In this document: in pieces, positions 58,055 through 60,463 of the stretch
How positions within the stretch are numbered: the first letter of the stretch is position 1
Layout of the letters: each line of letters begins with the position of its first letter
NCBI RefSeq assembly: GCF_000235565.1
Contig: NC_017527.1
Location: forward strand, 310,001 to 374,000
Direction: 5' to 3'
DNA from: Methanothrix harundinacea 6Ac
Lineage (GTDB): Archaea; Halobacteriota; Methanosarcinia; Methanotrichales; Methanotrichaceae
DNA: 64,000 nucleotides
Position numbers and translations under genes: made by a program
Notes under the pieces: generated by a model
Database searches by the model: none
Seen by the model: only the letters and a program-made list of their open reading frames with translations
What the model was told of the DNA's origin: nothing

Positions 58055-58091
58055 GCTCCTTTAAATGATTATTTTTCACGTGCGGTTCACG
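58055..58091. promoter_or_regulatory. TATA and TTCAC-repeat element upstream of GMP synthase
   Basis: Plus strand: 'CTCCTTTAAATGATTATT' then TTCAC at 58075-58079 and 58086-58090, 11 bases apart. As a plus-strand promoter, transcription would start near 58090 and the TTCAC pair would lie between TATA and start, as a repressor site would. Read on the minus strand, 'GTGAAAAATAATCATTTAAA' matches the promoters of the two surface genes, so a leftward transcript is also possible. Confidence 0.45.
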
Positions 58092-58163
58092 TTGGTTTCA
58101 TCTGAAATCCGGACCGCCGATAACCGCAACCCTATTATCCTCGGAACCGGCCAAAAGGCCCCT

Positions 58164-59078
58164 ATGGGCATCAACGTCCCCCAGTTCATCGATGAAGCCA
58201 TAGCAGAGATTCGCCGCACAGTAAAGGGAAGGGCGGTCATCGGCCTCTCAGGGGGCGTGGACAGCTCCGTCTGCGCCTTTCTAGCCCGGGAGGCCCTTGG
58301 GGATCGTCTCATCCCGGTCTACGTCGACAGCGGCCTGATGCGGCTGAACGAGTCGAAGAAGATCGCCGAGATGTTCTCCGACTTCAACCTGATCACCGTC
58401 ACCGCCGAGGACCGGTTTTTGGGCGCCCTCGCCGGGGTGACCGACCCCGAGGAGAAGAGGAAGGTGGTGGGCGAGACCTTCATCCGGGTCTTCGAGGAGG
58501 AGGCGAGGCGGGTCGGCGCCGAGTACCTGATCCAGGGGACGATATACCCGGACCTGATCGAGTCGGAGGGGGGGATCAAGTCCCATCACAACGTCGGGGG
58601 CCTTCCGCTCCATATGGATTTCAAGGGGATAGTCGAGCCCCTCCGGGACCTCTACAAGGACGAGGTGAGGGCCGTCGCCCGGGGGCTGTCGATGCCGACG
58701 GAGATCTGCGAGCGGATGCCGTACCCCGGCCCCGGCCTCTCCGTCAGGGTCCTCGGCGAGGTGACCCGGGAGAGGCTCGGGGTCGTCCGGATCGCCAACG
58801 CCATCGTCGAGGAGGAGCTGAAGGGGTTTTTGCCCTGGCAGGCCTTCGCTGCGGTCCTAGGGAAGGCGACCGGCGTCAAAGGTGACATCCGGGCCTACGG
58901 TTACGTCGTGGCGGTGAGGGCCGTCTCCTCCCGGGACGCCATGACCGCCGACGTTATCGAGCTTCCCTGGGAGGTTCTGAGGCGGATATCCCACAGGATC
59001 GCCGGGGAGATCCCCGAGGTCTCCAGGGTGGTCTACGATCTGACGCCAAAGCCGCCGGGGACGATCGAGTTCGAGTGA
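58164..59078 (+). CDS. guaAB: GMP synthase, ATP pyrophosphatase subunit
   Basis: 304 residues from ATG 58164, where family similarity begins ('[18 protein letters not shown]'); the open frame runs back to 58065, overlapping the promoter. It activates XMP with ATP, and ammonia from the 50699 subunit then gives GMP. The PP-loop is '[17 protein letters not shown]'. Other marks are '[20 protein letters not shown]' and '[18 protein letters not shown]'. The C-terminus ends '[13 protein letters not shown]', as in all GMP synthases. Confidence 0.96.
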
Positions 59079-59090
59079 TCTCCTGGAGTT

Positions 59091-59657
59091 TCAGAGGACC
59101 CCTTTGGTGCTGAGGACGAGGGTACCCTCCCTCCTCATAGCCTCCTTCAGAGCGAGCCCCAGGGCCTTGAAGATGATCTCGGCCTGGTGGTGGTCGTTTT
59201 CGCCCTCGAACCTGATGTGGAGGGTGATCCGGCCCCCCTCCGTCAGGGCTGAGAGAAACGCTGCCACATCCTGAGTCGGCAGGTCCCCGACGAGGTCGCC
59301 GGCAAACTCGCCCCTCATCACCAGGTAGGCCCTCCCGCTCAGGTCTAGGGCCGCCGAGGCGAGGGCCTCATCCATGGGGGCTGCCGCCCAGCCGTACCTT
59401 CTTATCCCCCGCTTATCCCCCAGGGCGGAGGCGATCGCCTCCCCCAGGGCGAGCCCCAGGGCCCTCGACCTCTGGGCGGAGATCCCCCCTCCGGCCTTAG
59501 CCGAGAGGTCGATCCCGCTCATCCTCGCGAGGGCGCTCAGCATGTGGTCGAGGAACCCCGACCCGGATTCGAGTACCGAGTTCCCTTGGCCATCCAGGTC
59601 CAATTCGACGACGGCTCGCGCCCCTCCGACCTCGGAGCTTCCCTCACCCCTCCTCAA
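59091..59657 (-). CDS. hisB: HisB-like imidazoleglycerol-phosphate dehydratase with altered metal site
   Basis: 188 residues from TTG 59657, which follows 'GGAGGTGG'. HisB removes water from imidazoleglycerol phosphate in histidine synthesis and normally uses two manganese ions held by repeated H-H-x-x-E motifs. Present here: 'SGFLDHMLSALARM', 'GIRRYGWAAAPMDEALA', 'LDLSGRAYLV', 'NDHHQAEIIFKALGLAL' and 'STKGVL'. Missing: the first H-H-T-x-E-D motif, replaced by 'GGISAQRSRALGLALGEA' (residues ~57-74), and the N-terminal R-x-T-x-E-T. No other frame restores them. It follows hisA with an 80-base gap, so the histidine context is kept, but activity is uncertain. Confidence 0.85.
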   Translation of the reverse strand: MRRGEGSSEVGGARAVVELDLDGQGNSVLESGSGFLDHMLSALARMSGIDLSAKAGGGISAQRSRALGLALGEAIASALGDKRGIRRYGWAAAPMDEALASAALDLSGRAYLVMRGEFAGDLVGDLPTQDVAAFLSALTEGGRITLHIRFEGENDHHQAEIIFKALGLALKEAMRREGTLVLSTKGVL

Positions 59658-59737: not shown

Positions 59738-60463
59738 TCAGGATCGGAGGGCCGAGAGGGCCTCTCTGAAGTCGAGCTTTCCCGTATATATCGCCGTCCC
59801 GACGACCGCTCCCGCGGCGCCCGCGCCTCTCAGGACCAGGAGGTCCCCGACGGTGGTGACCCCTCCGGCGGCGACGACCGGGATCTCCACCGCCTCCACG
59901 AGCCTCCTCGTCGGCTCGGGGTCGATCCCCCGGACCTGACCTTCGACGTCGATGTTGGTGAAGAGGATCGAGCCCGCCCCCCGCTCCTGGAATAGGAGCC
60001 CAAGCTCGATCGCCCCCTTCTCCAGGTTCCGCTGCCACCCCTCGGTGGTCACCTTCCCGCGCCTCACGTCCAGGGCGACCATCACCCTCTCCTTCCCGAA
60101 CTCCTCCGCGACCTCCGTCACCATCTCAGGGCGGGCGAGGGCCGCCGTCCCCAGGATCACCCGGTCGACGCCCAGGCCGAGGAGCGAAGCCGCATCCTCC
60201 GGGGACCTGATCCCGCCCCCCACCTGGATGAAGAGGTCGAGGGTCTCGACGATCTCCTGGAGGATGGGGCCGTTGATCCGGACCCCCTGGATCGCCCCGT
60301 CCAGGTCGATGATGTGCAGGGTCGAAGACCCCATCTCGGCCCACCGGACCGCCTCCGCCAGGGGGTCGTCGAGGGATACCACCTCCGTTCCCGGGACGCC
60401 GCCGACGAGCTGGACGCATCGGCCGCCGCGGAGGTCGACGGCAGGGAAGAGATCGAAAGCCAT
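59738..60463 (-). CDS. hisA: phosphoribosylformimino-5-aminoimidazole carboxamide ribotide isomerase
   Basis: 241 residues, the normal HisA TIM barrel. It catalyses the Amadori rearrangement of ProFAR to PRFAR in histidine synthesis. Catalytic Asp is in 'FPAVDLRGGRCVQLVGG' and the second in 'VMVALDVRRGKVTTEGWQ'. Phosphate-binding segments are 'IQVGGGIRS' and 'PVVAAGGVTTVGDL'. 'FTNIDVEGQVRGIDPEP' is also typical. A TATA-like 'AAAACTTAAGCC' lies only 25-35 bases upstream, so the leader is very short. hisB follows. Confidence 0.95.
   Translation of the reverse strand: MAFDLFPAVDLRGGRCVQLVGGVPGTEVVSLDDPLAEAVRWAEMGSSTLHIIDLDGAIQGVRINGPILQEIVETLDLFIQVGGGIRSPEDAASLLGLGVDRVILGTAALARPEMVTEVAEEFGKERVMVALDVRRGKVTTEGWQRNLEKGAIELGLLFQERGAGSILFTNIDVEGQVRGIDPEPTRRLVEAVEIPVVAAGGVTTVGDLLVLRGAGAAGAVVGTAIYTGKLDFREALSALRS

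Follow-up and report, generated by a model that had tools for sequence, protein, structure and literature searches.

In bifunctional bacterial HisB, imidazoleglycerol-phosphate dehydratase (IGPD) is fused to histidinol-phosphatase. This architecture varies by fusion with a second activity and leaves the dehydratase site undivided, unlike the pair of proteins described here. IGPDs have been described as homo-24-mers, and the HHxxE motif was found in all of 535 sequences surveyed (PMC7284861). Mn-free IGPD forms inactive trimers that are assembled by Mn (PMC10978614; PMC7284861), as described for the plant and fungal enzymes (PMC7284861). The active site adjoins the two-fold axis between subunits A and A′ (PMC6029752). 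In the structure 6FWH, Mn1 is bound by H67 from A′ and by H40, H162 and E166 from A, and Mn2 by H66, E70 and H138 from A′ and by H163 from A; K170 and D101 of A and R92, R114, S191 and K193 of subunit C complete the description of the site (PMC6029752). The 6FWH residue numbering was verified against the chain sequence. The closest working analogy to our locus comes from a protein unrelated to HisB, the deoxyhypusine synthase of trypanosomatids, in which an impaired subunit is activated by a catalytically dead paralogue (PMC3663545).

The window analysed here, a stretch of 64,000 nucleotides from Methanothrix harundinacea 6Ac, carries a HisB homologue, named W, and a second homologue, named B, is encoded 224 kb from W in the same genome. 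Compared with canonical IGPD (HisB, PF00475; 6FWH, 4MU4 and 2F1D), the two proteins taken together have the same fold, the same eight metal ligands and, overall, the same phosphate pocket, and they share the hisA neighbour and the histidine pathway context. In contrast to the canonical homo-24-mer, in which every chain carries both HHxxE motifs, each of our chains carries one half, so that two genes would be needed. As in trypanosomatid deoxyhypusine synthase, the subunits are duplicated and would be (nearly) inactive alone and functional as a heteromer, which for W and B is judged from sequence. The trypanosomatid enzyme, however, has one dead activator subunit, whereas here the ligands of one metal cluster would be divided between the subunits; moreover, the W–B pair is archaeal, order-wide and probably a 24-mer. 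No relevant report of a heteromeric IGPD or of a Methanothrix HisB was found in the literature searched, subscription journals being outside its scope.

The W gene is an uninterrupted ORF of 188 aa with a TTG start that agrees with the starts of its orthologues, mostly MRKG. Its product matches PF00475 with an E value of 5e-46 (156.8 bits, cut-off 27), and phmmer aligned it along its entire length to the IGPD of A. castellanii in PDB 6fwh (E 1e-36). The motifs FLDHM, RGIRRYG, MDEAL, LSGR, GENDHHQAE and STKG were all recognized. A single-sequence fold prediction reached a pLDDT of 39.6, which makes the model unusable, and the fold of W is read from this homology. The gene lies directly behind hisA, and a GMP synthase subunit gene (58065-59078) converges on it (Table 1). 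The earlier note had described W as a HisB in a continuous frame behind hisA, with the second HHxxE, FLDHM and the STKG end intact, and this description was borne out. Its statement that the first HHxxE is missing was also correct, the motif being replaced by GGISAQRSRALG, and the reported absence of RxTxET was confirmed by alignment to 6FWH and to the W orthologues. A third loss had been overlooked, namely H138 of VEHF, which reads VAAF here. The alignment of related Methanothrix proteins that the note proposed showed the losses of W in 47/47 orthologues. A sequencing error or frameshift was rejected on this ground, the identical positions being lost throughout the order.

A whole-genome search for a second HisB with both motifs had also been proposed. 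It returned one other HisB, B, which is non-canonical and shows mirror-image losses; the genome (2.57 Mb, two contigs, 99.9% complete) contains exactly two PF00475 matches, neither of them canonical. B scores 117.2 bits against the PF00475 cut-off of 27, and its predicted structure (pLDDT 93.6) has the IGPD fold, four helices between two sheets, superposing on 6FWH with 1.2 A rmsd and a TM score of 0.92. It retains RRDTAET, DHHTVED and LGHF with H138. On the other hand, B has DEI where DHM is expected and DDWQKVE where the second HHxxE is expected, and it lacks the GIRRYG arginine, R114 and the STKG tail. Both proteins are members of the IGPD family, by sequence for W and B and by fold for the B model, yet neither appears to be a self-sufficient HisB. 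Neither reached any NCBIfam HisB equivalog cut-off (best W 189.4 versus 231, best B 135.5 versus 269), and an automated pipeline may therefore either assign no gene to the IGPD step or label both proteins HisB. A purP-like gene (DUF1246/DUF1297; L032:2680-4125, (-)) is divergent from B.

Table 1. Positions of W, its active-site regions, hisA and B; numbers without a prefix refer to the window, and residues are numbered as in 6FWH.
Feature	Position	Strand	Remark
W, putative subunit, HisB homologue	59091..59657	(-)	with A-face and C-face active-site residues, without A′ face
STKG C-loop (S191, K193 of subunit C)	59100..59111	(-)	kept: 46/46 W aligned there; K193 in 0 B
GENDHHQAE, second HHxxE (A face, H162/H163/E166)	59178..59204	(-)	kept in W
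VAAF for VEHF, Mn2 ligand H138 (A′ face)	59256..59267	(-)	lost: H in 0/47 W, 48/48 B
Phosphate-binding R114 (C)	59331..59333	(-)	kept: 47/47 W; 2/48 B
MDE, D101 holding Mn2-bound water (A)	59367..59375	(-)	kept: 47/47 W, 0 B
GIRRYG, phosphate-binding R92 (subunit C)	59391..59408	(-)	kept: 47/47 W, 0 B
First HHxxE region (A′ face, H66/H67/E70)	59460..59492	(-)	lost in W: GGGISAQRSRA
FLDHM, Mn1 ligand H40 (A face)	59541..59555	(-)	kept: H in 47/47 W, 0 B
RxTxET region (catalytic Glu, Ac E14 / At E21)	59613..59648	(-)	replaced in W (GEGSSEVGGARA)
hisA	59738..60463	(-)	same strand as W, directly upstream of W
B, putative subunit	G000:C2:598105-598647 = L032:3914-4456	(+)	PF00475 homologue, 180 aa

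The distribution of the active-site residues was examined in 47 W and 48 B proteins from the order and in 30 HisB proteins from sister orders, which have the complete set. The losses of W and B are complementary and follow the division of the subunit faces assigned in 6FWH (PMC6029752). H66, H67 and D71 occur in 0/47 W and in 47/47, 47/47 and 46/47 B, respectively, and E70 in 47/47 B, with a glutamate in that column also in 16/47 W. R10 and T12 of RxTxET, which are among the A′ residues retained by B, are found in 0/47 W; the glutamate of this motif appears in 8/47 W, scattered, and E14 in 47/47 B. H162 and H163 are present in 47/47 W and in no B, and K170 in 47/47 W. No chain carries both HHxxE motifs, the first being absent from W and the second from B in all orthologues covering them. 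If the losses of the eight metal ligands fell four and four, the chance that they would follow the face division is 1/70, non-ligand residues being excluded from the calculation. The partition does not run along sequence halves, since H40 is grouped with H162, and H66 with H138; such a pattern fits a physical interface and not domain loss. Besides the glutamates in the E70 column of W, two residues depart from the pattern: E166, kept in 47/47 W, persists in 32/45 B despite having no expected use there, and H48, which makes a water-mediated phosphate contact from chain A, is lost in W and B alike.

The catalytic E14/E21 is retained by B, the putative A′ donor, which conflicts with a figure legend that assigns Glu21 to chain A (PMC4509728). 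In the secondary structure of the B model, E14 and D101 are located in equivalent hairpins of the internal repeat, related by a pseudo-two-fold, which would put the two residues of one site on opposite chains. Given that D101 is labelled chain A, this relation suggests that Glu21 may really be on A′.

We propose, with a probability of about 0.9, that W and B are the two obligate subunits of a hetero-oligomeric IGPD. An ancient duplication of hisB at the base of the Methanothrix order would have given rise to both genes. In W, the surfaces A (H40, D101, H162, H163, E166 and K170) and C (R92, R114, S191 and K193) would have been retained and A′ lost; in B, the A′ surface (R10, T12, E14, H66, H67, E70, D71 and H138) would have been retained, while A and C disappeared. 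A complete di-manganese site would then be formed only at contacts to which W contributes the A and C faces and B the A′ face. Because each protein lacks the half of the site that the other keeps, neither should work alone; we infer that W assembles with B and that the pair is the catalyst. The model predicts no complete site in W homo-oligomers or in B homo-oligomers. The earlier note had suggested a different metal layout in W, but the layout is predicted to be ordinary, with its parts coming from two gene products. Of the note's two further options, another HisB for the job or a new role for W, the former was right in that a second HisB exists; this protein, B, is non-canonical itself and lacks the other half of the site.

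Alternatively, W could do the work itself, its metal site having been rebuilt with new ligands in place of H66/H67/E70/H138, and B could be a separate or regulatory protein. The ancestral position of W beside hisA and its retention of all substrate-phosphate ligands except H48 would be in keeping with this. However, no His, Glu or Asp is conserved at the lost positions among the 47 W proteins, where the H66 column shows -/P/L/A/Y, the H67 column Y/Q/W and the H138 column P/A/T. Moreover, B, whose retained residues are strictly those of the half that W lacks, has been conserved together with W across the order. We regard a rebuilt site in W as very unlikely.

PF00475 matches were found in 50/50 genomes of the Methanothrix order, and W and B occurred together in 44 of them, spanning 11 genera. 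A third match in one genome (G032) turned out to be its B gene, broken across two contig ends; apart from the genome of the window, the one- or two-contig genomes G013, G015 and G046 have exactly W and B each. The sister orders (70 genomes) and the other sampled Halobacteriota have 0 or 1 HisB copy; judged by copy number, no comparable split was found in these other Halobacteriota. Four of the six genomes without the pair have a completeness of 85% or less. The other two are 99% complete: W is absent from G004 together with hisA, and G017 lacks B and also 2.4 kb of flanking sequence found in its sister, so that the single-gene state of both looks like an assembly gap. With exceptions that are incomplete or gap-like, the co-occurrence of W and B was counted as obligate. 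Among 80 genome-collection loci, the second HHxxE was present in every relative outside the Methanothrix group whose motifs were readable, and rare cases in other phyla are possible. Of the readable relatives without it in public collections, nearly all carry the title Methanothrix, Methanosaeta, Methanotrichaceae or Ca. Methanocrinis, and the few under other titles are close in sequence to the Methanothrix group. One B-type HisB, with 85% identity to B of the window's genome, is located on a sequence titled bacterium UBP9_UBA1432 (L145, DCTU01000162.1), which is probably a Methanothrix contig that was mislabelled or placed in the wrong bin.

In the tree, W and B each formed one clade with a support of 100. 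The W and B distances correlate across 41 genomes with r = 0.91, a value that includes the shared species tree and is no evidence of contact by itself. The dN/dS ratio was below 1 in all pairs tested, for W and B alike, and both genes are under purifying selection. Linkage to hisA was observed for 39/47 W loci and for 28/30 canonical hisB loci of the sister orders, indicating that W is the positional orthologue in the ancestral place. Horizontal replacement was rejected on the strength of these single clades within the order and of the persisting linkage between W and hisA. In the single-contig genome G046 (1.88 Mb), hisA (C1:1087197-1087910) is 12 kb from B (C1:1100180-1100584) and not beside W. 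The canonical hisB genes of two genomes from another family of the same class as Methanothrix (G050:C12:21385-21813 and G052:C10:13341-13769) contain one in-frame TAG each in an otherwise open frame, perhaps read as pyrrolysine.

The earlier note had also considered W as a decaying paralogue. This is contradicted by the conservation of its A- and C-face residues in 46-47/47 orthologues and by the dN/dS ratio; decay beside a canonical HisB was rejected because neither the genome nor the rest of the order has such a protein. The window's genome has hisG, hisD and hisA/hisF, and the pathway consequently needs the IGPD step.

These genes also bear on a reading in which W and B do form a heteromer whose job is not the dehydration of IGP, for instance a moonlighting Mn protein or an enzyme for another substrate. 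B often adjoins purP, which was found near it in 29/48 loci. The purP product uses AICAR, a by-product of the step that precedes IGPD. The loss of H48 from both proteins would agree with another job as well. On the other side, the substrate-phosphate ligands (except H48) and both catalytic glutamates survive across W and B, and a genome with hisG, hisA and hisD has no other IGPD. A different function of the heteromer seems highly improbable to us. Least probable of all is that W and B are both decaying, with some unrelated enzyme acting as the IGP dehydratase or with uptake of histidine: neither protein alone has a full site or passes the equivalog cut-offs, but the purifying selection on both, the near-perfect conservation of complementary site halves across 11 genera and the presence of all other his genes searched for speak against it, and random decay would not spare metal ligands.

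Returning to the obligate W–B enzyme, its possible architecture was considered by symmetry. When an octahedral 24-mer was coloured by tetrahedral cosets, the computation showed that the true two-folds swap the colours and the three-folds preserve them, so that alternating homotrimers would give 12 W–B sites. The 24-mer is shaped like a cube, and homotrimers of W and of B could alternate at its eight corners; every two-fold would then pair W with B. One of the two sites there would be complete, with W in the role of A and B in that of A′, and the other nearly ligand-free. We consider it reasonably likely that the enzyme is such a tetrahedral hetero-24-mer, with four W and four B homotrimers and with one live and one empty relic site on each of 12 edges. 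The phosphate-binding subunit C would have to be W, since R92, R114 and the C-loop are all missing from B. The arrangement accommodates this if C is three-fold related to A; a statement to that effect was not found in the literature searched. If the architecture is true, the division of the surfaces between two genes cost the enzyme half of its ancestral active sites.

HisB has been described as a homomer of 24 chains in which each sequence carries both metal motifs; the W–B pair would be an order-wide exception, and motif-based annotation would label both proteins defective. It would represent a very clean case of a symmetric homomer turned into an obligate heteromer by complementary loss, with no gain required. 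Two inactive proteins that complement each other would also provide a genetic handle on the Mn-driven assembly of IGPD from trimers to the 24-mer.
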